From Ignavibacteriota bacterium (GTDB lineage: Bacteria > Bacteroidota > Ignavibacteria > UBA10030): a stretch of 33,466 nucleotides of DNA. The notes beneath the pieces were generated by a model. The model ran no database searches, was not told the DNA's origin, and saw nothing but the letters and a program-made list of their open reading frames with translations. Both the position numbers and the translations under genes were made by a program. The stretch spans positions 1 to 33,466 of the forward strand of contig RPQN01000025.1 of assembly GCA_003819715.1 (NCBI GenBank). Direction: 5' to 3'. How positions within the stretch are numbered: the first letter of the stretch is position 1; the number at the start of each line of letters is the position of its first letter. Positions 3,231-31,483 of this stretch are shown here, one piece after another.

Positions 3231-3929
3231 ATGGCCACTGCAGGAAAATCTATACTTATTGTTGATCCGGAAACAGAAATATCTTCGATGCTGTTCAGCG
3301 TTCTTTCGCAGGATGGATATTGTGTGACATCCGCCTCCTCCGGCACGGAAGCGTTGAACCACCTGCAGTATTTGCCCGATCTCATCATCCTTGATCCACA
3401 ACTACCGGATATGAATGGATTGGACATTTTTCATGTTATCAAACAAAAACCCGAATTACACAATGTTCCTGTATTCATTCTGAGTTCAAAGGAAACAGAG
3501 ATAGATGAAATTATTAGCCTTGAAATCGGCGCTGATGATTATATCACGAAACCTCTGCAGGTACCACGGTTGAAAGCCCGGATACACGCCCTTTTTAGAC
3601 GGCAGGATCAACAGATCACCACTCAGGAAAATGAGACTGATATGATTACGATCGACGATCTTTCGATCCTGATTCCGCAATTTACAGTAGTCTGTGGAGA
3701 GGAATATATCGGATTTTCTAAAAAGGAATTTGAGATTCTCGTACTCATCGCAAAGAACCATGGACGGGTAGTGACGCGTCAGACGTTATTTCATACGATC
3801 TGGGGTCATGATGACAACTCAGCCAACCGAACAATAGATGTACATATTGGCCGCATACGAAAGAAACTAAAAAGCTATGCACATTACATCGAGACAGTGC
3901 CCGGTATCGGGTACCGGCTTCGCCAATAG
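3231..3929 (+). CDS. OmpR/PhoB-family response regulator (receiver + winged helix)
   Basis: Receiver motifs LIILDPQLPDMNG, FILSSKE, DDYITKP; C-terminal winged helix GFSKKEFEILVLIAKNHGRVVTRQTLFHTIWG...RTIDVHIGRIRKKL...VPGIGYRL. Confidence 0.92.
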   Translation: MATAGKSILIVDPETEISSMLFSVLSQDGYCVTSASSGTEALNHLQYLPDLIILDPQLPDMNGLDIFHVIKQKPELHNVPVFILSSKETEIDEIISLEIGADDYITKPLQVPRLKARIHALFRRQDQQITTQENETDMITIDDLSILIPQFTVVCGEEYIGFSKKEFEILVLIAKNHGRVVTRQTLFHTIWGHDDNSANRTIDVHIGRIRKKLKSYAHYIETVPGIGYRLRQ

Positions 3930-7080: not shown

Positions 7081-7109
7081 TTAACAATTTGATAACCAAA
7101 CGATTAACT
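7081..7109 (+). promoter_or_regulatory. Candidate Pho-box-like direct repeats
   Basis: TTAACA (7081-7086), ATAACC (7092-7097), TTAACT (7104-7109), spaced 11 and 12 bp, between divergent genes. Confidence 0.4.
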
Positions 7110-7176
7110 TCCGGCAATGTTCATTTTCGATATTTGTATCGTGCAATTGAGAACAATAAGGACAAAGGAGCATAAC

Positions 7177-7332
7177 ATGAAACAATGGATATCAGCCCAC
7201 ATTTTATCTGCCGAAGAATTGAGACTGGAAGAAAATATTCCCATCAGCAACCAGGAGTTCTTCCTCTCCTTGAGCTTGGTCGGTATCGCCCTTGCATTCT
7301 TTGGGATTATCATTCGAGTATTCGGAGCTTAA
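7177..7332 (+). CDS. Small single-TM protein (51 aa)
   Basis: MKQWISAHILSAEELRLEENIPISNQEFFLSLSLVGIALAFFGIIIRVFGA; ribosome-binding-like AAAGGAG 6 nt upstream of the ATG; shorter start than the track's 7117. Confidence 0.6.
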   Translation: MKQWISAHILSAEELRLEENIPISNQEFFLSLSLVGIALAFFGIIIRVFGA

Positions 7333-7341
7333 TGCAGCCCC

Positions 7342-7518
7342 ATGATAACAAACACAAATCAGAATGCCCGGCAAAGGCCATTGCTCATTCGGCATATCGT
7401 CGACCTGTTCGGCCGCGACGAAATGCAAGAAGTTGAAATTCAACGATCAACCGATGGAGAATATTTTCTCTTTCTCGGCTTAATTGCACTTGCGCTGTTC
7501 ATCCTGTGCTCTCTTTAA
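7342..7518 (+). CDS. Small single-TM protein (58 aa), absent from the ORF track
   Basis: MITNTNQNARQRPLLIRHIVDLFGRDEMQEVEIQRSTDGEYFLFLGLIALALFILCSL, translated by hand; starts 9 nt after the preceding stop and ends in a hydrophobic segment like its neighbour. Confidence 0.5.
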   Translation: MITNTNQNARQRPLLIRHIVDLFGRDEMQEVEIQRSTDGEYFLFLGLIALALFILCSL

Positions 7519-7612
7519 TGGATGCATCACCATCTTTATGAAATCGTTTTTCTACTGATAACAAAATAACTTAATCCATAACAATCACATATATATAAAG
7601 GAATAAATACAT

Positions 7613-8758
7613 ATGAAGAAGATGCTAGCAGTTTCTACACTTCTCATTCTTCTTGGATTAACGACTGCCGTTGGTCAAGGAAAATTCAGCGGTTACATGT
7701 TCGGGGATTACTATTATAATGTAGGGCGGGACGCAAGTATTCCGAGCTCGAACATCGCCAGCCCGGCTGGGACAACTGCGTATCAAGCATTCCAATTACG
7801 CCGCATTTACTTCGCGTACGATAACGATATTTCCGAGCAATTCACCACTCGCTTCCGTCTTGAAGCCGATCAGGCAGCTGCCACAAGTGCTCCAACCGCT
7901 TCGGGCGATGTTCTTCCCAGCGGCAAGGTCGGTGTATTTGTGAAAGACGCGTACTTGATGTGGAAAAATGTTTTCGGCGGCAGCAATCTGATTTTCGGCG
8001 TCCAGCCGACTCCCGCCTATGATGTTTCAGAGGGAGCGTGGGGATACCGGTCGCTTGAAAAGACGATTATGGATTTGCGCGGGACAGTTCCTTCGCGCGA
8101 TCTCGGAATTTCGTTAAAAGGAAAAATTACGAGCGACGGAATGATCAATTACTGGGCAATGTTTGCTAATGGAAGCGGCAACAATGTGGAAATAGATAAA
8201 TACAAACGGTACTATGCCCATATTCAATTGAAACCCGTGACGAATCTTCAGGCCACACTCTACGTCGATTACAAAGATGCAGTGGATATTCTCAATACTT
8301 ACACAAAAAATACTGTCAGCAACAGCGCGGTAACAACTGCGTTGTTTCTTGGATACAGCGAGCCGTTCAGTTATAACATCGGCGTCGAAGCTTTTGTACA
8401 ATCCATTTCTAATGCTCTCAAGGATACATCCGCAAAATCCTATGCGGCAAAATCCACTATGGGTTTCTCTGTGTTTGGCTCTTATAACATCCTGCCTGAG
8501 CTTGCAATTGTTGCCCGTTATGACAATTTCAACCCAAGCACGGACGACAAGGGAAAAGATCCCGTTGCAGTCACCGCCGCTGTCGCAAATGCGAATTTAT
8601 CCCGCAATTATATTATTGCCGGATTTTCATGGAAAGTCGACAAGAACGTCTCAATTATGCCCAATGTTTTGTATGAGACCTACGAAACACCGAAGGGCGG
8701 AAAAGCGATAAATGCTTCTACGACTGCTCGTCTCACCGCATATTATGTTTTTCTCTAA
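7613..8758 (+). CDS. Outer-membrane porin-like protein (phosphate-selective porin type)
   Basis: Signal peptide MKKMLAVSTLLILLGLTTAVGQ; YQAFQLRRIYFAYDNDISEQFTTRFRLEAD; beta-strand pattern with C-terminal ...LTAYYVFL; next to pstS. Confidence 0.8.
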   Translation: MKKMLAVSTLLILLGLTTAVGQGKFSGYMFGDYYYNVGRDASIPSSNIASPAGTTAYQAFQLRRIYFAYDNDISEQFTTRFRLEADQAAATSAPTASGDVLPSGKVGVFVKDAYLMWKNVFGGSNLIFGVQPTPAYDVSEGAWGYRSLEKTIMDLRGTVPSRDLGISLKGKITSDGMINYWAMFANGSGNNVEIDKYKRYYAHIQLKPVTNLQATLYVDYKDAVDILNTYTKNTVSNSAVTTALFLGYSEPFSYNIGVEAFVQSISNALKDTSAKSYAAKSTMGFSVFGSYNILPELAIVARYDNFNPSTDDKGKDPVAVTAAVANANLSRNYIIAGFSWKVDKNVSIMPNVLYETYETPKGGKAINASTTARLTAYYVFL

Positions 8759-8814: not shown

Positions 8815-9852
8815 ATGAAGATGAAATTTACAAAGATATGTATGAGTCTGGCGCTTGTGGTGGTCCTTTTCGGCACTACGCTTGCACAGATGAAACTTAA
8901 TGGCGCTGGTGCCACATTCCCGTACGTCATTTATTCAAAATGGTTCGACGTGTACAGCAAACAACATGGCGTGCAATTCAATTATCAATCTATTGGCAGT
9001 GGTGGCGGCATCAAGGCGGTGACAGATGGAACAGTAGACTTTGGTGCTTCCGATGCCGCGTTGTCTGATGGACAATTGAATACCATCAAAGAAAAGCAAG
9101 GATCAGATGTCCTGCATATACCAACCGTAATGGGCGCAGTGGTGGTGACGTATAACCTTCCGGGAGCAGGCAAAGACCTTCGCTTGTCTCCAGATGTACT
9201 TGCTAAAATTTTTCTCGGTCAGGTGAGAAACTGGAATGACCAATCGATCGCCCAGATCAATCCGGGAAAAACCCTGCCCAATGTACCGATTATCGTTGCG
9301 CATCGTTCGGACGGAAGCGGCACAACAAATATCTTCACGGATTATTTGAATAAGGTCAGCAAAACGTGGGCCGTGAATATTGGCAAAGGGACATCGGTCA
9401 ACTGGCCGATTGGTCTTGGCGGTAAAGGGAACGAGGGGGTTGCCGGTTTGGTGAAACAATCGGAAGGCGCAATAGGATATGTCGAATTAGCCTACGCTGT
9501 CCAAAACGGATTATCGTATGCTTCCATGCAAAATAAAGAAGGGAACTTTATCGTACCAAATTTTGACGCGGTTTCGGCTGCAGCTGCAGGCGTATCGAAG
9601 AATATGCCGGAGGATTTCCGTATCTCTTTGACTGATGCACCGGGAAAAGATTCTTATCCTATCAGCGGATTTACCTGGTTGTTAATCTACAAAAACATGA
9701 AAGACAAGGGAAAAGCGCAGGAGATTGTCAGGTTTTTGAAATGGGCAATGGAGGATGGTCAATCCTACGCGAAAGATCTTTATTATGCGCCGCTGCCGAA
9801 GGATGTCGTTAAACTGTGCGAAAAGAAAATTAACACGATCGTCACGAATTAA
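8815..9852 (+). CDS. pstS: Phosphate ABC transporter substrate-binding protein PstS
   Basis: LNGAGATFPYVIYSKWFDVYSKQHGVQFNYQSIGSGGGIKAVTDGTVDFGASDAALSD...RSDGSGTTNIFTDYL...WPIGLGGKGNEGVAGLV...GAIGYVELAYA, an E. coli-type PstS signature. Confidence 0.95.
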   Translation: MKMKFTKICMSLALVVVLFGTTLAQMKLNGAGATFPYVIYSKWFDVYSKQHGVQFNYQSIGSGGGIKAVTDGTVDFGASDAALSDGQLNTIKEKQGSDVLHIPTVMGAVVVTYNLPGAGKDLRLSPDVLAKIFLGQVRNWNDQSIAQINPGKTLPNVPIIVAHRSDGSGTTNIFTDYLNKVSKTWAVNIGKGTSVNWPIGLGGKGNEGVAGLVKQSEGAIGYVELAYAVQNGLSYASMQNKEGNFIVPNFDAVSAAAAGVSKNMPEDFRISLTDAPGKDSYPISGFTWLLIYKNMKDKGKAQEIVRFLKWAMEDGQSYAKDLYYAPLPKDVVKLCEKKINTIVTN

Positions 9853-9904
9853 TTTCGCAGAATAGTTCCTTGGGTGGAAACACCGACTATGACTGCGCAA
9901 CGGC

Positions 9905-9938
9905 CGGGTGGTGACAAACGGTGGATTGTTACCACCCG
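9905..9938 (+). other. Intercistronic stem-loop between pstS and pstC
   Basis: CGGGTGGTGACAA-ACGGTGGA-TTGTTACCACCCG: 13-bp stem with one G-U pair, 8-nt loop. Confidence 0.75.
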
Positions 9939-9955
9939 TTGTTCTATCAGAGATC

Positions 9956-10879
9956 ATGAGACAAACAAACATCAATATTGGGGACAGAATATTTAAGAAC
10001 ATGACAATGTTCTTTGCGATTATTGTGTTCGGACTTGTATTCCTTATGGCATACGAGATGATCCGTGGATCAGAATTATCACTTCAAAAGTTCGGATGGA
10101 AATTTCTGAGCGGTACCGTGTGGGACCCGGTTGCGGATGTGTACGGGGCTCTTCCCTATATCTATGGCACATTGACTTCCTCCTTTTTGGCAATGGTATT
10201 GGCATTTCCATTAAGCATCGGGATTGCAATTTTTCTCTCCGAACTCGCACCTCCATGGATCGAACGCCCTGTTTCCTTTATGGTCGAACTGCTTGCCGCC
10301 ATTCCAAGTATTGTGTACGGTCTCTGGGGAATATTCGTTCTTGTGCCGTGGCTGCGCACGTCTGTCGAGCCATTTCTTATCAAACATCTTGGCAGCCTGC
10401 CTTTTTTCAAAGGTGCGCCGTACGGATTTGGTATGCTCGCAGCAGGAATAATATTGGCCATTATGATACTCCCTATCATCTCCTCTATTTCACGGGATGT
10501 GCTCCGGGCAATTCCAAACTCGCAGCGGGAAGCTGCCCTTGCCATTGGCGCAACAAGATGGGAATCGACAAAGATCATCCTTGCTGGCGGAAAATCCGGC
10601 CTTCTCGGCGCGGCATTGCTCGGCCTCGGCCGCGCCGTCGGCGAAACGATGGCAGTCACGATGGTGATCGGCAACCGGGCTGAAATCTCCGCGTCACTTC
10701 TTGATCCGGGCCATTCCATGGCAAGTGTCATCGCAAACGAATTTGCCGAAGCAACGACAGCGCTGTATTCAAGCTCTCTTATAGAGATTGCACTCATTCT
10801 CTTTGCGGTTACGATTATTCTGAATGTTATTGCACGATTGATTGTCTGGAGTATCACCAAGAAATTTAAAACGACATGA
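9956..10879 (+). CDS. pstC: Phosphate ABC transporter permease PstC
   Basis: [76 protein letters not shown] at 9956 preferred over the track's GTG at 9908, which lies in the stem-loop. Confidence 0.93.
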   Translation: MRQTNINIGDRIFKNMTMFFAIIVFGLVFLMAYEMIRGSELSLQKFGWKFLSGTVWDPVADVYGALPYIYGTLTSSFLAMVLAFPLSIGIAIFLSELAPPWIERPVSFMVELLAAIPSIVYGLWGIFVLVPWLRTSVEPFLIKHLGSLPFFKGAPYGFGMLAAGIILAIMILPIISSISRDVLRAIPNSQREAALAIGATRWESTKIILAGGKSGLLGAALLGLGRAVGETMAVTMVIGNRAEISASLLDPGHSMASVIANEFAEATTALYSSSLIEIALILFAVTIILNVIARLIVWSITKKFKTT

Positions 10880-11739
10880 AGAAAATAAATTATGAAAAAT
10901 ATCATTGGCGGAAGATAAAAAGCACAACGATGACCGCGCTTTCCATCATGAGCGTTGTCATTGCTGTTATTCCGCTGTTTCTTATTTTCTTTTATACGCT
11001 TGCACAGGGAATCAGCGCTCTGAATCTCGATTTCTTTATTCACATGCCAAAGCCCGTCGGCGAAACTGGCGGCGGTATGGCAAACGCACTAATGGGAACT
11101 GCAATTCTCATCGGGTTAGGATGCCTCTTCGGATTGCCCGTCAGCATTTTTGCCGGCATCTACCTTGCAGAGCATGGCAATAACACGTTCGGGCAAATAG
11201 TAAGATTTTTCACCGATGTTCTCAGCGGCATTCCCTCCATCGTCGTTGGTGTCGTTGCATATATTTTAGTTGTCGTTCCGATGAAACAATACTCAGCGCT
11301 TGCAGGAGGTGTCGCACTCGGTATTCTCATGATCCCTACAGCCACTCGCACCACGGAAGAAATGATCCGGCTTGTACCTCACTCGCTGCGGGAAGCTGCG
11401 CTGGCAATCGGCCTCCCGCAATGGAAAACGACCTTGAGAATTATTCTCCCGACCGCGCTGAAAGGCATAACGACCGGTGTCCTTCTTGCCATCGCCCGTG
11501 CGGCGGGCGAAACTGCACCGCTGCTGTTTACTGCGCTGGGTAACCGGTTCTGGTCAACCGATCTCGGTCATCCCATGGCATCGTTGACCGTTTTTATTTA
11601 CGATTATGCTAAGGCTCCATTTGAAGACTGGAACAGGCAGGCCTGGGGCGCGGCATTTGTACTGATCGTACTTATTTTCATCGTCAACATGACGTTCCGT
11701 TTTGTCACCCGCGGGCGTTATGGTGATCATCAGAATTAA
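10876..11739 (+). CDS. pstA: Phosphate ABC transporter permease PstA
   Basis: [74 protein letters not shown]; overlaps the pstC stop by 4 nt (ATGA). Confidence 0.94.
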
Positions 11740-11749
11740 GGGAACCGTA

Positions 11750-12547
11750 ATGATAGAGACCCTCCAAAAGTTTTCACCAGCAATTGTATCACATAAAATG
11801 GACCTCAAACTCGAAGCGAAAACCGTAAATGCCTTCTTTGGAAAAACACAGGCATTGCAAAATGTATCACTCTCGATAGAAAAGAACCATGTCGTCGCAA
11901 TCATAGGTCCATCCGGCTGTGGCAAGTCGACGTTTCTTCGATGCTTGAATAGAATGCATGAAGTGGCAGGCGGAACGATGAACGGAACTATTTTGCTCGA
12001 TGGCAAAGATATTCACGAGAATGACCCGGTGAATCTCAGGCGGCGGGTCGGCATGGTATTTCAAAAGGCCAATCCCTTTCCGACGATGTCGATCTTTGAC
12101 AATGTCGCCGCCGGTCTTCGGTTGAACGGCATGGCACACAACGGCCATATTGCGGAGATAGTTGAACGAAGCCTTCAGCAGGCAGCACTCTGGAATGAAG
12201 TGAAGGATTCACTTTCAAAAAACGGCATGAGCATTTCCGGAGGGCAGCAGCAGCGCTTATGTATCGCCCGCGCCCTTGCCGTCAATCCGGAAGTACTTCT
12301 CATGGATGAACCTGCCAGCGCGCTCGATCCCATCCCAACAGCAAAAATTGAAGAATTGATTTATGAGTTGAAGAAGGACTATACTATCATCATTGTAACA
12401 CACAACATGCAGCAGGCGGCGCGCGTGAGCGATGAGACAGCGTTCTTTTATCTGGGTGAAATCATTGAATTTGACAATACGAAGAAAATCTTCACTGCGC
12501 CGTCGATCAAGCAAACGGAAGATTACGTTACGGGAAGATTCGGATAA
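11750..12547 (+). CDS. pstB: Phosphate ABC transporter ATPase PstB (canonical copy)
   Basis: Walker [11 protein letters not shown]-loop VFQ, signature ISGGQQQR, Walker B LLMDEP, H-loop VTHN. Start adjusted from 11702. Confidence 0.95.
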
Positions 12548-12562
12548 GGAAGAGGAATTATT

Positions 12563-13225
12563 ATGGAACGGCATTTTCAGCATGAGCTCGAAGGCGTAAA
12601 AACAAATCTCATCAAAATGGGAAGTGCTGTTGAAGAAAACATTAACAATGCGGTCATTGCAATTCTGGAGCGGAATGAAGTCATTGCAGCAAAGGTGATC
12701 GAGAGCGACAAACGAATCGATACACTCGAAATCGAGATAGACAATGCGATCATCGATATGCTGGCACTGCAGCAGCCGGTCGCGAGCGATCTCCGATTTA
12801 TTATTGCGGCACAAAAGATCAATAACGATCTCGAGCGCATCGGCGATCATGCCGTCAACCTTGCTGAATCAGCATTGACACTCCAGAAAAGCAAGAAATT
12901 GGAATCACTTTTAGAGATTCCTCAGATGGTCTCGGCAACGAAACTGATGCTGAAGTATGCCCTTGATAGTTTCATCCTCCTCGACCCAAAAATGGCGCGT
13001 ATAGTGCTGGAAACGGATGACCAAATCGATGAGTGGAATCGTTCTATGACAACGAACGTCATTGAACTTTTAAAAAACGATAAACAGTTGATCGAACCAG
13101 GCCTTGCACTCATCCGTATCAGCCAAAATCTGGAACGTGTGGCAGATATGGCCACAAATATTGCAGAAGAAGTAATTTTTCATATACAAGCACTGGTCGT
13201 AAAGCATCACGCCGAAGAGATATAG
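12563..13225 (+). CDS. phoU: Phosphate transport system regulator PhoU
   Basis: LEIEIDNAIIDMLALQQPVASDLRFIIAAQKINNDLERIGDHAVNLAE and ISQNLERVADMATNIAEEVIFHIQA. Confidence 0.95.
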   Translation: MERHFQHELEGVKTNLIKMGSAVEENINNAVIAILERNEVIAAKVIESDKRIDTLEIEIDNAIIDMLALQQPVASDLRFIIAAQKINNDLERIGDHAVNLAESALTLQKSKKLESLLEIPQMVSATKLMLKYALDSFILLDPKMARIVLETDDQIDEWNRSMTTNVIELLKNDKQLIEPGLALIRISQNLERVADMATNIAEEVIFHIQALVVKHHAEEI

Positions 13226-13308: not shown

Positions 13309-13347
13309 TTAACAATTTCTTAACACCACTGTTACAGAATGTTTACC
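13309..13347 (+). promoter_or_regulatory. Candidate Pho box: four 11-bp-phased hexamers
   Basis: TTAACA (13309), TTAACA (13320), GTTACA (13331), TTTACC (13342), exactly 11 bp apart, 57 bp upstream of the pstS2 ATG; matches the known TTAACA direct-repeat style of Bacillus PhoP boxes. Confidence 0.6.
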
Positions 13348-13403
13348 TATATTTGAAACATAAAATATCGAACAATATGACCATACTGTAAAGGAACATT
13401 CAA

Positions 13404-14288
13404 ATGACTAAATCAACCAGCATTATCGTTTCAGCCGTGCTCGGGCTGCTGCTCTTCAGCGGGTGTGCGCGGAAAAGCGGTGATCAATCGAATTCCGTGC
13501 AAATTAAAGGTTCCGATACCATGGTGAACCTCGGCCAGGCTTGGGCAGAAGCGTATATGAAGCAAAATCCCGGCATGTCCATTGCCGTGACCGGAGGCGG
13601 ATCCGGAACCGGTATTACCTCTCTCATTAATAATACGTGCGACATTGCAGAAGTGTCGCGTGAGATGAAGCAGAGCGAAGTCGATCTCATCGCATCTAAA
13701 GGCGCGGCCCCATTGAAACTGATCGTTGCCCTGGACGGCCTTGCGGTTGTGGTCAGCCCTGAAAATAAAATTTCTGAACTGACGATAGACCAGCTCGCCG
13801 ATATATTCACCGGAAAAATCAAGAACTGGAAAGAACTCGGCGGGCGGGATGCAAAGATTGTCCTCCTCTCAAGGGAAGTAAATTCCGGGACCCATGTGTA
13901 TTTTAAAGAACACGTCCTCCGCCATGGCAAATCCGACGGCAAGGAAGAATTTGCAGCAGAAGCGCTGCTCCTCTCAAGTTCACAGGCCATTGCCGACGAG
14001 GTATCGCAGAACCAGGATGCCATCGGCTATTACGGAATGGGGTATATCACCTCGAAAGAAAAAGCGCTGAAGGTTGCGAAGGATAAAAATTCTCCTTTTG
14101 AAGCTCCGACGATGGAGAACGTTATCAGCGGCGCCTATCCCATCTCGCGGCCGTTGCTGATGTATACCAAAGGCGATCCAAAGGGATTGGCAAAAGCATT
14201 TATCGATTTTGTGCTTTCTTCTGCAGGCCAGGAAGTGGTGAAGAAGCTGGATTTTGTGCCGGTGCAACCCCTGAAACAAAGTAAGTAA
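13404..14288 (+). CDS. pstS: Second PstS-family phosphate-binding lipoprotein
   Basis: Lipobox LLFSGC; VQIKGSDTMVNLGQAWAEAYMKQNPGMSIAVTGGGSGTGITSLINNTCDIAEVSREMK; REVNSGTHVYFKEHVL. Confidence 0.92.
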   Translation: MTKSTSIIVSAVLGLLLFSGCARKSGDQSNSVQIKGSDTMVNLGQAWAEAYMKQNPGMSIAVTGGGSGTGITSLINNTCDIAEVSREMKQSEVDLIASKGAAPLKLIVALDGLAVVVSPENKISELTIDQLADIFTGKIKNWKELGGRDAKIVLLSREVNSGTHVYFKEHVLRHGKSDGKEEFAAEALLLSSSQAIADEVSQNQDAIGYYGMGYITSKEKALKVAKDKNSPFEAPTMENVISGAYPISRPLLMYTKGDPKGLAKAFIDFVLSSAGQEVVKKLDFVPVQPLKQSK

Positions 14289-14295
14289 CGCCGAA

Positions 14296-15168
14296 ATGCA
14301 CCTGCGAAAAGTAAAAGAGTTCATCATCGAACGGATGATTTTCCTCAGCGGCATCATGTCGATTATCATCGTCGCGTTGATTTTCATTTTTTTGCTCAAG
14401 GAAGGGCTGTCTATTTTCTGGAGGGTTCCGATTTCTGATTTTTTATTCGCGCGCAATTGGTACCCGATATCCGATCCCCCGCAATTCGGCATCCTGCCTC
14501 TCATCCTCGGATCGATTTTAGTCACGGCCGGGGCGGGAGTGATTTCCATTCCCATTGGAATCGCCAGCGCGCTTTTTATCGCAGAGATTGCCCCGCGTAA
14601 AACCAAGGAGGTTCTGAAAGCGGGCATCGAACTTCTTGCCGCAATTCCCTCCGTCGTGATCGGGTTTATCGGAATGGTGACGCTCGGCCCGTTTATAAAA
14701 GATCTCTTTCATCTATCAACCGGGCTCACAGCGCTTTCCGGGTCTATTACGCTCGCATTCATGGCGATGCCCACCATTGTGTCCATCGCCGAAGATGCCA
14801 TTACAGCGGTCCCCCGCCAGTACCGTGACGCTGCCATCGCCATGGGTGCAACAAAATGGCAGACCACGTGGCGCATTGTCGCCCATGCGGCGCGCCCCGG
14901 AATGGTTGCAGCCGTGATGCTCGGTATCGGCCGCGTGATCGGCGAGACGATGGCCGTCATGATGGTCACAGGGAATGCCGCATTAATACCGCATAGCATT
15001 CTTCAACCGGTGCGCACGTTAACGGCAACGGTTGCCGCGGAAATGGGCGAGACCGTGCAGGGCGGCGAGCATTATGCAGCGCTGTTCGCGATCGGTATTG
15101 TGTTATTCATTATTACATTCCTTATAAACGGCGTTGCCGATATTTATCTTCATAAAACAAAGAAATAA
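14296..15168 (+). CDS. pstC: Phosphate ABC transporter permease PstC (system 2)
   Basis: IELLAAIPSVVIGFIGMVTLGP, YRDAAIAMGATKWQTTWRIVAHAARPGMVAAVMLGIGRVIGETMAVMMVTGN. Confidence 0.93.
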   Translation: MHLRKVKEFIIERMIFLSGIMSIIIVALIFIFLLKEGLSIFWRVPISDFLFARNWYPISDPPQFGILPLILGSILVTAGAGVISIPIGIASALFIAEIAPRKTKEVLKAGIELLAAIPSVVIGFIGMVTLGPFIKDLFHLSTGLTALSGSITLAFMAMPTIVSIAEDAITAVPRQYRDAAIAMGATKWQTTWRIVAHAARPGMVAAVMLGIGRVIGETMAVMMVTGNAALIPHSILQPVRTLTATVAAEMGETVQGGEHYAALFAIGIVLFIITFLINGVADIYLHKTKK

Positions 15169-15186: not shown

Positions 15187-16032
15187 ATGAACGTTCAGGT
15201 TGAACAAAAGATTGCATTCAGTATCCTCTTTCTCTGCACGCTGCTGGTGGTCGTGCCGGTACTGATCATTCTCGTCATCATCTTCGTGAAAGGTGCGGGC
15301 GCTCTCAATCTGGGGTTTTTATTTGAGATGCCCACGAATGGGATGACCGAAGGCGGAATTTTCCCGGCAATTTTAGGCACGTTGTACCTTGTCCTCGGAG
15401 CGCTCTTTTTTGCCGTGCCGCTCGGCGTCCTCTCTGCAATTTATCTCGTGGAGTACTCGCAGGAAACAGTGCTCAGCCGGATCGTGAAACTGGCCATTGT
15501 GAATCTTGCCGGAGTCCCATCGGTCGTGTACGGACTTTTCGGTCTGGGCATTTTTGTACTATTTTTAGGATTCGGCGCCTCTATCCTCTCCGGTTCGCTG
15601 ACGCTGGGTATTATGATCCTGCCGGTGATTATCACTTCATCCCGCGAAGCCCTGGAAAGTGTCCCGCAATCCTTCCGCATTGTCAGTTTATCACTCGGGG
15701 CGAGCAAATGGCAGACCATCCGGCATTCTGTCCTCCCACATGCGCTTCCCGGAATTCTTACAGGAACCATTCTCGGTATTGGAAGGGCTGCAGGGGAAAC
15801 CGCTCCGATTCTCTTCACCGTTGCCGCTTTTTATCTTCCAAAATTGCCGCAGTCCATGTTCGATCAGACGATGGCGCTTCCGTACCATTTGTACGTTATT
15901 TCCACGCAAGTCCCGGGCATACCGGAAACCATCCGTTACGGGACAGCCCTGGTGCTGCTGCTCCTGGTGCTGATCATGAATCTTGCCGCAATCATCCTCC
16001 GGTATCAATTTCGCAGGAGGAAAAAATGGTAG
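15187..16032 (+). CDS. pstA: Phosphate ABC transporter permease PstA (system 2)
   Basis: [94 protein letters not shown]. Confidence 0.93.
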   Translation: MNVQVEQKIAFSILFLCTLLVVVPVLIILVIIFVKGAGALNLGFLFEMPTNGMTEGGIFPAILGTLYLVLGALFFAVPLGVLSAIYLVEYSQETVLSRIVKLAIVNLAGVPSVVYGLFGLGIFVLFLGFGASILSGSLTLGIMILPVIITSSREALESVPQSFRIVSLSLGASKWQTIRHSVLPHALPGILTGTILGIGRAAGETAPILFTVAAFYLPKLPQSMFDQTMALPYHLYVISTQVPGIPETIRYGTALVLLLLVLIMNLAAIILRYQFRRRKKW

Positions 16033-16787
16033 GGGCAAAAGCACCAAAATTTTCCATTCAGGATTTCACAATCCATTTCGGGAATGTTGCGGCGCTTAAA
16101 AATCTTACTCTCGATATATTCTGCAACGAGATTTTTACGATCATCGGCCCTGCAAATTCCGGAAAATCATCGCTCCTCCAATCGCTGAACCGTCTCAATG
16201 ATCTCAATGCAGCTTACCGGAAAAGCGGGAAGATACTCCTGGATGGGACCAATATCGACGAACTGGAGGTGGAATCACTCCGGAAACGCGTCAGCATTGT
16301 CTTTGCACTGCCATTCCCCCTCCCCCTGTCGATATTTGACAATATCGCGTACGGGCCGCGTATGCACGGGATAAAAAATAAAGCGAAGCTTGCAGGAATT
16401 GTCGAGAATAGTCTGCGCGAATCCTATCTCTGGGATGAAGTGAAAGACCGTCTGCACATTCCGGCCATGAATCTTTCGGGCGGCCAGCAGCAGCGCCTCT
16501 GCATCGCCCGGATTCTTGCCGTCGAGCCAGAAGTGATCATGTTCGATGAACCGACCTCCGGTCTCGATCCGATATCAACCGCGCGCGTCGAGGAAACCCT
16601 GCGCGTGCTGAAAGAACGGTATACCATTATCCTCGTGACCAACAATGTCGCACAGGCAGCGCGTGTAGGCGACCGGACGGCGTTTGTTCTCATGGGAGAA
16701 CTCGTCGAACTCAACGAGACCAAACGGCTGTTCACCACCGCTGTAGACAAACGGACGGATGACTACATCACGGGAAAATTCGGATAA
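16026..16787 (+). CDS. PstB-like ATPase, copy alpha (Q-loop Gln and H-loop His replaced)
   Basis: ATG at 16026 overlaps the pstA2 stop by 7 nt, GGAGG at 16016-16020. Walker A GPANSGKSS, Walker B VIMFDEP, signature LSGGQQQR intact; Q-loop VFA (GCA 16305-16307), H-loop VTNN (AAC 16641-16643). The track's 15708 start runs into pstA2. Confidence 0.92.
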   Translation: MVGAKAPKFSIQDFTIHFGNVAALKNLTLDIFCNEIFTIIGPANSGKSSLLQSLNRLNDLNAAYRKSGKILLDGTNIDELEVESLRKRVSIVFALPFPLPLSIFDNIAYGPRMHGIKNKAKLAGIVENSLRESYLWDEVKDRLHIPAMNLSGGQQQRLCIARILAVEPEVIMFDEPTSGLDPISTARVEETLRVLKERYTIILVTNNVAQAARVGDRTAFVLMGELVELNETKRLFTTAVDKRTDDYITGKFG

Positions 16788-16789
16788 TC

Positions 16790-17548
16790 ATGAAAAAGTT
16801 GATCATTGAAACACGGCATCTCGATTTATTCTACGGCAGTTTTCAGGCGCTGACCGATATCAACCTCGGCATCGAAGAGAAAAATATTACAGCGCTCATC
16901 GGCCCTTCCGGATGCGGAAAATCAACTCTCGTGCGGGTCTTCAACAGAATGAACGATACGATCGAGGGCGTTCATACGAACGGCGAGGTGGAAGTCCTGG
17001 GTGAAAATATTTTCGGACCGGAAGCAGACCTCATCGCGCTCCGCCAGAAAGTCGGCATGGTGTTTCAGCGGCCCAATCCGTTTCCCTTGTCCGTCTACGA
17101 GAATATCACGTTCGGACTTGAAATCCATCACTCAAGGTCCAAAAAAGAATTTGGAGAGATGGTGGAACAATCGTTAACAGACGTCATGCTCTGGAACGAT
17201 CTGAAAGACCGCCTGGACCGCTCTGCGCTCCGGCTCTCCCTCGAGCAGCAGCAGCGGCTGTGCATCGCCCGCGTGCTGGCGATGAAACCGCAGATTATTC
17301 TCATGGATGAACCCTGTTCAGCGCTCGATCCGATTGCCACACTGCGGATTGAAGAGCTGATGCAGGAATTAAAGAGGAATTATTCGATTGTCATTGTGAC
17401 ACACAATATGCAGCAGGCGGCCCGGGCAAGCGACTATACGGCGTTTATGTATTTGGGCAATCTTATCGAATTCGGCAATACCAAAAGCATCTTTACGAAG
17501 CCCGTACAAAAGAAAACAGAAGAATACATCACTGGAAGATTTGGTTGA
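16790..17548 (+). CDS. PstB-like ATPase, copy beta (signature LSGGQ replaced by LSLEQ)
   Basis: Walker [11 protein letters not shown]-loop VFQ (CAG 17066-17068), Walker B ILMDEP, H-loop VTHN (CAC 17402-17404) intact; signature region CTC TCC CTC GAG CAG at 17234-17248 encodes LSLEQ. Confidence 0.93.
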   Translation: MKKLIIETRHLDLFYGSFQALTDINLGIEEKNITALIGPSGCGKSTLVRVFNRMNDTIEGVHTNGEVEVLGENIFGPEADLIALRQKVGMVFQRPNPFPLSVYENITFGLEIHHSRSKKEFGEMVEQSLTDVMLWNDLKDRLDRSALRLSLEQQQRLCIARVLAMKPQIILMDEPCSALDPIATLRIEELMQELKRNYSIVIVTHNMQQAARASDYTAFMYLGNLIEFGNTKSIFTKPVQKKTEEYITGRFG

Positions 17549-17564
17549 CAGGAGGAGAACAACA

Positions 17565-18035
17565 ATGGAACTGACCAAACATATTGCATTGGTCGCCCAT
17601 GATAACTGCAAAAAGGACCTGGTCGAATGGGTGGAATGGAACTGGAAAATACTGTTAAACCATAAACTTATCTGCACCGGAACCACCGGCCGGCTCGTAG
17701 AGGAAACCATCCTCAAAAGCCTCGAAAAAGATCATTCCATGAAGTACGACATTATGAAGCTCAAATCCGGACCGTTCGGCGGCGATCAGCAGCTCGGCGC
17801 TCTGATTTCGGACGGGCAAATTGATGTCCTGATATTCTTCTGGGATCCCATGCAGCCGCACCCCCATGATGTGGACGTCAAAGCACTGCTCAGAATTTCG
17901 GTGCTTTATAACATCCCGACCGCATGCAACAGATCTACGGCAGATTTTCTTATATCGTCGCATCTCCTGAACGATCCGTACATACAGAAGCTCACAGATT
18001 ATACGGAATATCTGGAACGCTCGTTGCCGTCATGA
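17565..18035 (+). CDS. mgsA: Methylglyoxal synthase
   Basis: ALVAHDNCKKDLVEWV, LICTGTTGRLVEE, LKSGPFGGDQQLGALISDGQIDVLIFFWDPMQPHPHDVDVKALLRISVLYNIPTACNRSTADFLISS: essentially the full MgsA motif set. GGAGG at 17551-17555. Confidence 0.95.
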   Translation: MELTKHIALVAHDNCKKDLVEWVEWNWKILLNHKLICTGTTGRLVEETILKSLEKDHSMKYDIMKLKSGPFGGDQQLGALISDGQIDVLIFFWDPMQPHPHDVDVKALLRISVLYNIPTACNRSTADFLISSHLLNDPYIQKLTDYTEYLERSLPS

Positions 18036-18097: not shown

Positions 18098-18775
18098 ATG
18101 GAACGCCACTTTCAAAAAGAACTGGAAAGCCTTAAAACAGCACTCATTAAAATGGGAAGTGTCGTCGAGGAAAATATCGCCTCCGCGATCCGCACCGTCC
18201 TGGAAAAGAGCAACGGCCTTGCACAGAAGGTGATCGAAACAGATCAGCGCATTGATGCTCTGGAAATTGAAATCGATAACGCGGTGATCGATTTGCTTGC
18301 ATTGCAGCAGCCGGTGGCAAGCGATTTGCGGTTTATTATTGCAGCACAAAAGATCAATAACGATCTTGAACGGATCGGCGACCATGCAGTCAATATCGCG
18401 GAAGCCGCTGAAATATTACATTCGTTTCCCCAGTTTGAGATCCTGGAGGAAATTCCGAAGATGGCGGGTATCACGAAGTCGATGCTGAAAGATGCGCTGG
18501 ACAGCTTCATCCTGCTTGATCCGGTCAAAGCAAGGATGGTCATTACAACGGACGACCAGATCGACGACTTAAACCGGCTGGTTGCAAGAAAGATTATAGG
18601 ATGGGTGAAAACCAATACCCAGTCGATTGAATGCGGATTGGAGATGAGCAGAGTGAGCCGTGAATTGGAGCGGGTTGCGGATCTCGCCACCAATATCGCA
18701 GAAGAAGTAATTTTCCATACACAGGCGCGCGTCGTCAAGCATCATGCGGATGAGAAAGAACAGCCGGCATCATAA
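18098..18775 (+). CDS. phoU: Second PhoU regulator
   Basis: LEIEIDNAVIDLLALQQPVASDLRFIIAAQKINNDLERIGDHAVNIAEAAE, closely similar to the PhoU at 12563. Confidence 0.95.
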   Translation: MERHFQKELESLKTALIKMGSVVEENIASAIRTVLEKSNGLAQKVIETDQRIDALEIEIDNAVIDLLALQQPVASDLRFIIAAQKINNDLERIGDHAVNIAEAAEILHSFPQFEILEEIPKMAGITKSMLKDALDSFILLDPVKARMVITTDDQIDDLNRLVARKIIGWVKTNTQSIECGLEMSRVSRELERVADLATNIAEEVIFHTQARVVKHHADEKEQPAS

Positions 18776-28194: not shown

Positions 28195-30549
28195 TCACTC
28201 ACCATCGTCCGAAATCATCGATCTCGAAAAAATGGAATATCGCGGTGCCGGCATGGGGTTGCCGGTAACGACGCGCCAGATAATTTCGCTGAATTCACGA
28301 TCGGGGATATCATCTTCCTTTTTCAAATTATAGCGCTCCATCATCGCTTCGCCGTACGAACCATTTTTATTCCGCTCGTTCAAATCCCAACGGGCCTCCT
28401 CTGCCCGATAGCGGAGCGTATCCGCGATGGTCGTGAAGGCATTAAACATCGGTGTTGCAGCCGCATCGTACTGGCTCATGGGCGGCAATCCGAGAATTAA
28501 TTCCATCGTGCGCAGCATCGATGCCGTCGTATAGAGCGTGTGATTCACCTCGTGTTTCTTGATATAGGGGCTTATCACCAAGCCCACCGATCGGTGCGCA
28601 TCCACATGGTCGGGGCCGTTTTGTGCATCATCCTCTACCACGAAAATTGCACTCTCCAGCCAATATCTGCTCTGGGAAATCCGATCAACGATCAACCCGA
28701 GGGCACGGTCATTCTGGGCGACATAGGCGCGCGGAGATAACGCACCTTTCTTTGACCCAGAGGTATGGTCGTTCGGCAAATGCATAATGCAGAGCTGCGG
28801 CAAAGAGTCGTTTTTTTCGTATTCTGAAAACTCCTTATTCCATTCTTCAAACCGGTTGACATCCGAATAATTGAGATCCCATCCGCGATAGTATGGCGCA
28901 AAATGTCCATCCAATCCTTTCTCGCGCGACACTCCGGGTTTTCCTATAATTTCGTTCGCTGTAATAAATTCGCCATAGCTCCGGAAACTGATGTTCTGTC
29001 TCGCGGCAAGCGTCCACAAATAACCGGAGGCCGGCTCACCGGCAACTTGTCCGCCTTCAAAATCATATTCCCCGCCGCGATCGCCGTATTGTGTAGGCCA
29101 GGTTTTTTCAATGTAATCCGTTGCATAACCGGCCATCGACCAGTTGTGACCATCGGCGCTGACTTCCGAATTCACATAGAAGTTATCAAAGAGCATGAAT
29201 TCACGTGCAAGCTTGTGATGGTTCGGAGTGACCTTCTCGCCAAAGATACAGAGGGATGTATCGCCATTTCCCTCCTGCATGTCCCCGAACACCTGATCGT
29301 ATGTCCGATTTTCCTTGATGATATAAAAGACATGCTTCAGAGGAGATGGATCGCCGACAGAATGAGGGATAGCGCTCTCGTTGGCATAAGGAACGTGAAG
29401 CAGCTGTTCGTGTTTGTACGGTGTATTGGAAAAAACCTGCCTGGAATAATCAAGCAGCGTTTTCTCGTCAGGAAGACGAACGAGAGAAAGAGATCCTTCC
29501 ATGAGGTTGGCGATGTAGTGTCCATCCGGATTGGCAAATGACCGGCCCCCTTTGCCGTTCAGGACAAGAACCGTTTTGTCCTTGAGCACCATGACTTTTG
29601 TCGGGTACCACCCCACCGGTATGAAACCGGCAGGTCTCGGATGGTCGATCTTTTTGAGATCAATGACGGTGAGGGAATTATTATCGGCATTTGCCGCCAG
29701 TATTCTTTTTTCGCCCGGAACCAGGGCAATCGAATTTGTTGTCGAACCTTCCGGAGCATCCGGATGAATGGCCGTAGAGAGAGAGGCCACCGCTTTCTTT
29801 TTTTCAAGATCGACAATGCTCACCGTGTTATCATTAGAACAAGCGATATAGGCGACCCTTCCATCGTCAGAAAGTGTAATTTCATTCGGGTGATCTCCCG
29901 TTGGAATTTCATACTGAAGTTTCATGTTCCTGAATACTTCAACCTTCTTCGATCCCCATATGGAAACCATCACTGCGCCGTCTTTCAGGAACACGCAGGT
30001 ATACGGCATTCCGTCCAGTTTGACGATTTCCTGTTTCTTCTTTTTCATGTCCATGACACGGAATGTGCTGTCATTGCGGAATACGACGGCCAGTAAATCC
30101 TTCTGGAGGTCCAGACCCTGCAACGCACCATTATAAGCCGGGCGCGGTTCGGCAAAGCGGATCGTATCGGCTTTTTCCAATCTTCCGTTGTTCAATGTGA
30201 ATGTGAAAACGCAGTTGTGATATCCACCGGAGACATAGAGGGTCCTGCCGGAAAACTTGATTCCATACCACGTATCCGGCAATTCGATCTTCTGTACATT
30301 CTTCTTCGTGTGCAAGTCCAGCAGCCAGATTTCCGCTTTCGATTGTCCGCTGTGTGATATTGCGAGATATCGCTCATTTTCCGACAGTGCCGCATTCATG
30401 GGAAAATCGCCTAAACGAACCTGTTCCCCGGCGGGCGAAAGCCACCATCCGTTCGGAAGGAGTACACGGTTGTTCCTTTCGCCCGGAATTTGTGCATGAA
30501 GGATTGCCGCAGCAACAACGCATAACATCACAAGAAATCGGGTTTTCAA
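28195..30549 (-). CDS. Secreted YVTN-like beta-propeller + phosphoesterase (phospholipase C/acid phosphatase-like) protein
   Basis: Propeller GRVAYIACSNDNTVSIVDLEKKKAVASL and ILAANADNNSLTVIDLKK; phosphoesterase HVFYIIKENRTYDQVFGDM...FMLFDNFYVNSEVSADGHNWSMAGYATDYIEKTWP. TTG start at 30549 with GAGGAG upstream and signal peptide LKTRFLVMLCVVAAAILHA fits better than 30648, which overlaps the preceding gene. Confidence 0.85.
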   Translation of the reverse strand: MKTRFLVMLCVVAAAILHAQIPGERNNRVLLPNGWWLSPAGEQVRLGDFPMNAALSENERYLAISHSGQSKAEIWLLDLHTKKNVQKIELPDTWYGIKFSGRTLYVSGGYHNCVFTFTLNNGRLEKADTIRFAEPRPAYNGALQGLDLQKDLLAVVFRNDSTFRVMDMKKKKQEIVKLDGMPYTCVFLKDGAVMVSIWGSKKVEVFRNMKLQYEIPTGDHPNEITLSDDGRVAYIACSNDNTVSIVDLEKKKAVASLSTAIHPDAPEGSTTNSIALVPGEKRILAANADNNSLTVIDLKKIDHPRPAGFIPVGWYPTKVMVLKDKTVLVLNGKGGRSFANPDGHYIANLMEGSLSLVRLPDEKTLLDYSRQVFSNTPYKHEQLLHVPYANESAIPHSVGDPSPLKHVFYIIKENRTYDQVFGDMQEGNGDTSLCIFGEKVTPNHHKLAREFMLFDNFYVNSEVSADGHNWSMAGYATDYIEKTWPTQYGDRGGEYDFEGGQVAGEPASGYLWTLAARQNISFRSYGEFITANEIIGKPGVSREKGLDGHFAPYYRGWDLNYSDVNRFEEWNKEFSEYEKNDSLPQLCIMHLPNDHTSGSKKGALSPRAYVAQNDRALGLIVDRISQSRYWLESAIFVVEDDAQNGPDHVDAHRSVGLVISPYIKKHEVNHTLYTTASMLRTMELILGLPPMSQYDAAATPMFNAFTTIADTLRYRAEEARWDLNERNKNGSYGEAMMERYNLKKEDDIPDREFSEIIWRVVTGNPMPAPRYSIFSRSMISDDGE

Positions 30550-30571
30550 ATTCTTCTCCTCAGAGTCAATA

Positions 30572-31483
30572 TCAGATGTTGTTTTTTCTCGCACAGACCC
30601 GTGATAAAACAAACCGTCTGTAAACAATGCCCGCGAACAGGATCCCATTCATCAGGAATATATTAAGATAAAGATATAATTCCAGTCGATTCATAACCGA
30701 ACAGATCATCAGGAGAAATAATTCCGTACCAAAACCAAGAAACCCCGAAATGCGGAGTCCGATGGTGTCGGAATACCATGCCGCGGTCCATTCCGTCGGT
30801 TCTCCGGTTTCATCGGTCGATGCGGAAGATTCCATGCCGGGCCATCCTGCACACCACGCGTCGACCAGCACCATCAATCGATCCTGCCAGCCGTAGATGA
30901 ATTGAAAAATATACTGGAGTGTCAATTCATATCCGCCGGTGACGAGATCTTCGTTCCGCACTTCTTCGGTGATACGGTTGGTTTCGTACCGCCGTGCCAA
31001 ATGAAGAAAATGCACTTGATAAAACACATGATAGGACACGCGCAGGGTGATCCCGGCCAATCCGAGGAATCCGGCCATCACCATGGTCCAATCATGATTC
31101 TGTTGGAAGAGTATCCATCCGATAGAACCGAAGATTACGGCATCGACGACAAAATCGCCGATCGAATCCAAGAATCTTCCGGTACGGCTTTGCTGCTCTC
31201 TGGCACGCGCGAGCTGCCCATCCGCTGAATCAAGGATGTCTTTGAGTGTCACCAGCAGTCCGGCGGCAACGAAAGCGCCTGATGTCCCTATTCCATAGAA
31301 CACCGCAGCGGCAATTCCGGAAATGATCGAGAGGAGGGTAACCTGGTTGGGAGTGACGGGAGTATGAAACAGTACCCGGACAATGATTCCTGCAACGGGA
31401 CGGAGCAAGTACGTATTTATGAGTTCGTCGGACTTATCGGATTTGAGAGTATTATGGTAGGAATAATTCTTACTCGTCGACAT
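30572..31483 (-). CDS. CDP-alcohol phosphatidyltransferase-family protein
   Basis: DSADGQLARAREQQSRTGRFLDSIGDFVVD matches the D-x2-DG-x2-AR-x8-G-x3-D-x3-D family motif; multiple TM segments. Confidence 0.9.
   Translation of the reverse strand: MSTSKNYSYHNTLKSDKSDELINTYLLRPVAGIIVRVLFHTPVTPNQVTLLSIISGIAAAVFYGIGTSGAFVAAGLLVTLKDILDSADGQLARAREQQSRTGRFLDSIGDFVVDAVIFGSIGWILFQQNHDWTMVMAGFLGLAGITLRVSYHVFYQVHFLHLARRYETNRITEEVRNEDLVTGGYELTLQYIFQFIYGWQDRLMVLVDAWCAGWPGMESSASTDETGEPTEWTAAWYSDTIGLRISGFLGFGTELFLLMICSVMNRLELYLYLNIFLMNGILFAGIVYRRFVLSRVCARKNNI

Follow-up and report, generated by a model that had tools for sequence, protein, structure and literature searches.

The DNA analyzed here is a 33,466-nucleotide (nt) stretch of contig RPQN01000025.1 (assembly GCA_003819715.1) from an Ignavibacteriota bacterium, hereafter the window, and carries two adjacent Pst phosphate-uptake systems, pstS1-C1-A1-B1-phoU1 followed by pstS2-C2-A2-B-alpha-B-beta-mgsA-phoU2, with a gene for methylglyoxal synthase (mgsA, 17565–18035, 156 aa) being part of the second. 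All genes of both systems lie on the + strand. The second system comprises pstS2, encoding a phosphate-binding protein (13404–14288; TIGR02136, 256.9 bits), the permease genes pstC2 (14296–15168; TIGR02138, 284.6 bits) and pstA2 (15187–16032; TIGR00974, 289.9 bits), pstB-alpha for a PstB-like ATPase (16026–16787; TIGR00972, 320 bits, below the cut-off of 343), pstB-beta for PstB (16790–17548; TIGR00972, 378 bits, over the cut-off), mgsA as the sixth of the seven genes, and finally phoU2 (18098–18775; TIGR02135, 202.1 bits, over the cut-off). The gaps between them measure, in order, 7, 18, −7, 2, 16 and 62 nt, and pstS, pstC, pstA, pstB and phoU thus follow one another on one strand at short distances, as in a pst-phoU operon. 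The mgsA frame opens 16 nt after the pstB-beta stop (17548), with GACAGGAGGAGAACAACAATG as Shine-Dalgarno sequence, and closes 62 nt ahead of phoU2 (18098). An earlier, sequence-only reading of the window had given these coordinates, spacings, strand and Shine-Dalgarno sequence correctly and had placed mgsA between pstB-beta and phoU2, miscounting only in calling pstB-beta the second pstB; it is the third in the window, with the complete first system (pstS1, pstC1, pstA1, pstB1, phoU1; 8815–13225) lying directly upstream. Compared with the pstSCAB-phoU operons of Escherichia coli and Bacillus subtilis, the gene set, the order, the terminal phoU and the PHO-box-like 11-bp direct repeats before pstS2 are the same, whereas the extra metabolic enzyme and a split pair of complementarily degenerate PstB proteins set the window apart from them. 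In E. coli mgsA is not known to lie in a pst operon, while that of the window is inside one.

The sequence-only reading had further called the mgsA product a full methylglyoxal synthase, and profile searches bear this out, with full-length matches to NCBIfam PRK05234 (206.7 bits, cut-off 84) and TIGR00160 (163.3 bits, cut-off 146.9) and a match to the Pfam MGS domain PF02142. In alignment, H12, D13, K16 and T38–T41 of the window protein correspond to E. coli His19, Asp20, Lys23 and Thr45–Thr48, S68-G69, D74, D94, H101 and D104 correspond to Ser65-Gly66, Asp71, Asp91, His98 and Asp101, and R152 is likely the equivalent of Arg150. The catalytic and phosphate-site roles of these residues are those described for the E. 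coli enzyme; on this basis the window MgsA keeps every known catalytic and phosphate-binding residue and is predicted to be active. The E. coli enzyme of known structure (PDB 1B93, 1EGH, 1IK4) accordingly belongs to the same family, its catalytic and phosphate-contacting residues all aligning with the window protein, and differs in lacking about 10 residues that are inserted around positions 49–60 in the window MgsA and its closer relatives. It is the only MgsA of its genome: the three other PF02142 matches found genome-wide, in a 1163-aa frame (CarB by length alone), the C-terminal part of a CarB and a fragment of PurH where a contig ends, were rejected as second copies.

Transcription of the mgsA operon is presumed to start from a promoter 44 nt ahead of pstS2 (13309–13359, + strand), which consists of PHO-box-like direct repeats, TTAACAAtttcTTAACAccactGTTACAgaatGTTTACC, and a Bacteroidota-type −10 element, TATATTTG. 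The repeat array reads TTAACAA-tttc-TTAACA-..., with 11-bp spacing, and the −10 is of the TAnnTTTG type. Allowing at most one mismatch, YTAACAATTTNHTAACA occurs at two sites in the 4.03-Mb genome, 13309 and 7081, both within the window, versus none in the reversed control; the second of these (7081–7097, + strand, one mismatch) stands ahead of a cluster of a small open reading frame (ORF), a porin gene and pstS1. A PHO-box-like site precedes pstS2 in six of six genomes of the genus, with totals per genome of 1–4 versus 0–3 in the reversed control. Direct repeats of putative PHO-box type, by which membership of the Pho regulon is recognized, are found upstream of the transcription unit. Around mgsA, neither the pstB-mgsA nor the mgsA-phoU2 gap holds a terminator or a same-strand sigma-70-type promoter candidate above background, nor a stable hairpin (RNA structure in the mgsA-phoU2 gap, z 0.35), so that read-through from pstS2 is the simplest assumption and mgsA would share the pstS2 transcript. 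A candidate to bind the PHO box is a PhoB/OmpR-type response regulator encoded at 3231–3929 (+ strand; Pfam Response_reg and Trans_reg_C), a homologue of which adjoins the porin gene in the sister species, G005.

Comparison within the genus indicates how mgsA came to lie here. Each of the six genomes carries the second Pst system and, in it, two pstB genes, and the distance from pstB-beta to phoU2 is 12–14 nt in G002 and G004, where mgsA was not detected, and 21 nt in G005. Since the two genes nearly abut in relatives without mgsA at this place, its presence in the window is an insertion, and a recent one by which the window lineage gained mgsA inside a tight operon. In G005, MgsA is the sister of the window protein (83% identical, tree support 96/87), and its gene sits in the same pst cluster in a different slot, phoU1-mgsA-pstS2. 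The leader of the G005 mgsA duplicates that of pstS2 (local alignment score 60.5, versus a maximum of 22.5 in 300 shuffles), extending from the PHO box to just short of the pstS2 start codon. Scored with a position matrix derived from four pstS2 promoters, this leader reaches 44.3, with the 99.9% point of the background at 11.7 and the maximum of 3660 samples at 14.8; as the matrix includes the G005 pstS2 site, with which the mgsA leader shares its ancestry, this score is evidence of duplication more than of a motif matched independently. Among the other surveyed loci no mgsA upstream region comes near this score, and no PHO box was found upstream of the mgsA genes not linked to pst. By sequence, then, mgsA is under a pstS2-type leader in the window and in G005 by two different routes. 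A trace of relocation downstream of mgsA was also sought, and the two genomes have no common sequence there.

The gene-neighborhood survey that the sequence-only reading had proposed was carried out on 186 mgsA loci, taken from named genome contigs and from the window's class, and on a phylum-level sample. Linkage of mgsA to pst genes was found in 8 genomes, in at least four MgsA clades and in six gene orders, and is thus not peculiar to this genome. Besides the window and G005, G340 has pstS-C-A-B-phoU-mgsA, with CTAACAATTTTCTAACAA before pstS, G114 has pstA-mgsA-pstB-phoU, and G409, from the phylum-level sample, has phoU-mgsA-pstC-pstA-pstB-phoU, while in three further members of the G409 family (G398, G572 and G638) pstS directly precedes mgsA. 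The presence of a gene for the FMO protein marks the carriers of this family as green sulfur bacteria. In the MgsA tree the linked cases fall in four separate parts, being the window with G005, G114, G340 and the green sulfur bacteria. In G114, which belongs to another family, the frameshifted gene inside the pst operon (L173:625-1020) clusters with the MgsA sequences of the window's clade, which suggests transfer between families. G398 and G638 have two mgsA copies each (L233, L266), of which just one per genome adjoins pstS. Elsewhere mgsA has no conserved neighborhood and its neighbors vary; PhoU, PstS-type, PstB and PstA proteins together are among its most recurrent upstream families, in a set that was partly picked for pst linkage, with NamZ being the largest single family. 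Not counted as linked were G482, G566 and G599, in which mgsA lies roughly 10 kb from pst, nor PstS matches near mgsA at L110, L141, L149, L167 and L170, which are kilobases away or, at L141, part of a kinase fusion. The latter (L141:1530-4298, 734 aa) joins a Ser/Thr protein kinase, a PstS-type binding domain and an OmpA domain, and its gene stands immediately ahead of mgsA in a metagenome bin assigned to Deltaproteobacteria/Myxococcota.

From the operon, the conserved active site, the PHO-box-like site, the recency of the insertion, the leader duplicated in G005 and the repeated linkage, taken together, we propose that insertion into a pst-phoU operon has probably drafted mgsA into the Pho regulon, where it would free inorganic phosphate (Pi) from dihydroxyacetone phosphate (DHAP) in Pi-starved cells. 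Methylglyoxal formation is thought to be important in Pi limitation for the Pi released from DHAP, and E. coli MgsA is inhibited at 0.3–0.5 mM Pi (PMC11850910). When Pi is scarce, a PhoB-type regulator, possibly that at 3231–3929, would act at the PHO box before pstS2, and one message, induced by starvation, would then yield the high-affinity importer, MgsA and PhoU2. MgsA, released from inhibition by Pi, would convert accumulating DHAP into methylglyoxal and Pi, and the freed phosphate would again be available for glycolysis and ATP synthesis just where a shortage of Pi would stall glyceraldehyde-3-phosphate dehydrogenase, with transcription as part of the Pho regulon adding a second layer over the allosteric control of MgsA by Pi. 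The regulator binding, the co-transcription, the induction and the benefit are inferred. The sequence-only reading had likewise supposed that an overflow reaction releasing Pi may be tied to phosphate import through this operon, a supposition now strengthened by the PHO-box-led operon, the separate leader in G005 and the recurrent linkage, save for the part it assigned to PhoU2. Several observations weigh against the proposal. About 200 of the 206 mgsA loci surveyed have no pst gene next to them, so that linkage is rare overall; within the genus, G002 and G004 yielded no mgsA, and G001 and G003 have it elsewhere with no PHO box; the PHO boxes are assigned by sequence only; the G114 gene is frameshifted, in an assembly with 6% contamination; and a search of eight genomes gave no glyoxalase I over the curated cut-off that might account for methylglyoxal disposal.

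The distribution of the linked cases bears directly on whether mgsA, an often-transferred single gene, merely reached pst operons by neutral hitch-hiking, with no selection for Pi-dependent expression. Its unconserved and varied surroundings agree with this, as do the frameshift in G114 and the spread of the window's mgsA clade over several families, which suggests transfer. Random placement, however, would give about 0.28 linked genomes per 206 loci, versus the four clades and six orders found, and a rough Poisson P is about 2 × 10−4 for at least four clades and about 3 × 10−3 for at least three when the ascertained lineage is left out, a statistic that presumes random placement and independence for a window chosen for the feature and is to that extent a further point against our proposal. 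Moreover, the tight operons that mgsA entered were left unbroken, Pst and PhoU genes recur among its upstream neighbors, and in G005 it acquired a duplicated PHO-box leader, which is more than position alone. We therefore consider hitch-hiking unlikely, and think it probable that the Pho regulon has recruited mgsA repeatedly and in particular lineages. Methylglyoxal formation is also a known overflow for sugar-phosphate stress, and under the same Pho control it might serve chiefly to drain or signal an accumulation of phosphorylated sugars when cells are starved of Pi, with Pi recovery being minor. This would predict an identical gene arrangement and induction, and sequence cannot separate it from Pi recovery; the operon has no sugar-uptake genes, nothing else speaks specifically against it, and we hold it to be a possible, rather improbable, account. 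That PhoU2 senses, binds or restrains MgsA and so ties methylglyoxal output to import status, as the sequence-only reading had suggested, is very improbable, for although mgsA touches phoU in four of the six gene orders (window, G005, G340 and G409), phoU usually closes pst operons and such adjacency is expected by position, the neighbors are pstA and pstB in G114 and pstS in G398, G572 and G638, leaving no consistent PhoU partner, no fusion or overlap exists, and the PhoU family scores are ordinary.

The two pstB genes upstream of mgsA (16026–17548) are degenerate in complementary ways. PstB-alpha has an intact LSGGQ signature, a Q-loop (VFALPFPLP) devoid of Gln and an H-loop (VTNN) devoid of His, and PstB-beta has intact Walker A, Q-loop and H-loop motifs and a degenerate signature, LSLEQ. 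In a heterodimer of the two, one ATP site is predicted to be consensus and the other degenerate, as is the case in some ABC exporters. The pattern is shared by the whole genus and by three other genera (families f1, f6 and f27), with the PstB-beta signature being LSLEQ in G019 and G036 and LPLDQ in G206. Enterococcus faecalis and other Firmicutes likewise have a pst operon in which two pstB genes lie side by side (PMC12096839), but in E. faecalis both copies carry canonical motifs, in contrast to the window, where alpha is without the Q-loop Gln and H-loop His and beta without LSGGQ. Two further features of the window may be recorded. A short membrane-protein-like ORF (7097–7613) apparently lies between the PHO-box-like site at 7081 and the porin gene and has a counterpart upstream of the G005 porin. 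About 10 kb downstream, 28195–30648 encodes a phosphoesterase-family protein (PF04185) with a beta-propeller-like part, possibly phosphate-scavenging, at which no PHO-box site was found.

It has long been asked why bacteria retain an enzyme whose product is a toxic aldehyde, and Pi release under phosphate starvation is a standing answer, proposed chiefly from enzyme kinetics. We found no earlier report of mgsA in a pst operon in the open-access literature. We lean, with somewhat less assurance than for the recruitment itself, to the view that MgsA is a true Pho-regulon enzyme in parts of the Bacteroidota, Chlorobiota and Ignavibacteriota, taken up several times as an internal Pi-liberation module beside Pi import. 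That mgsA lies in pst operons in several lineages, in one case with a duplicated PHO-box leader ahead of it, constitutes independent genetic evidence for the Pi-release role, and the linked cases, green sulfur bacteria included, point to natural systems in which this idea may be tested.
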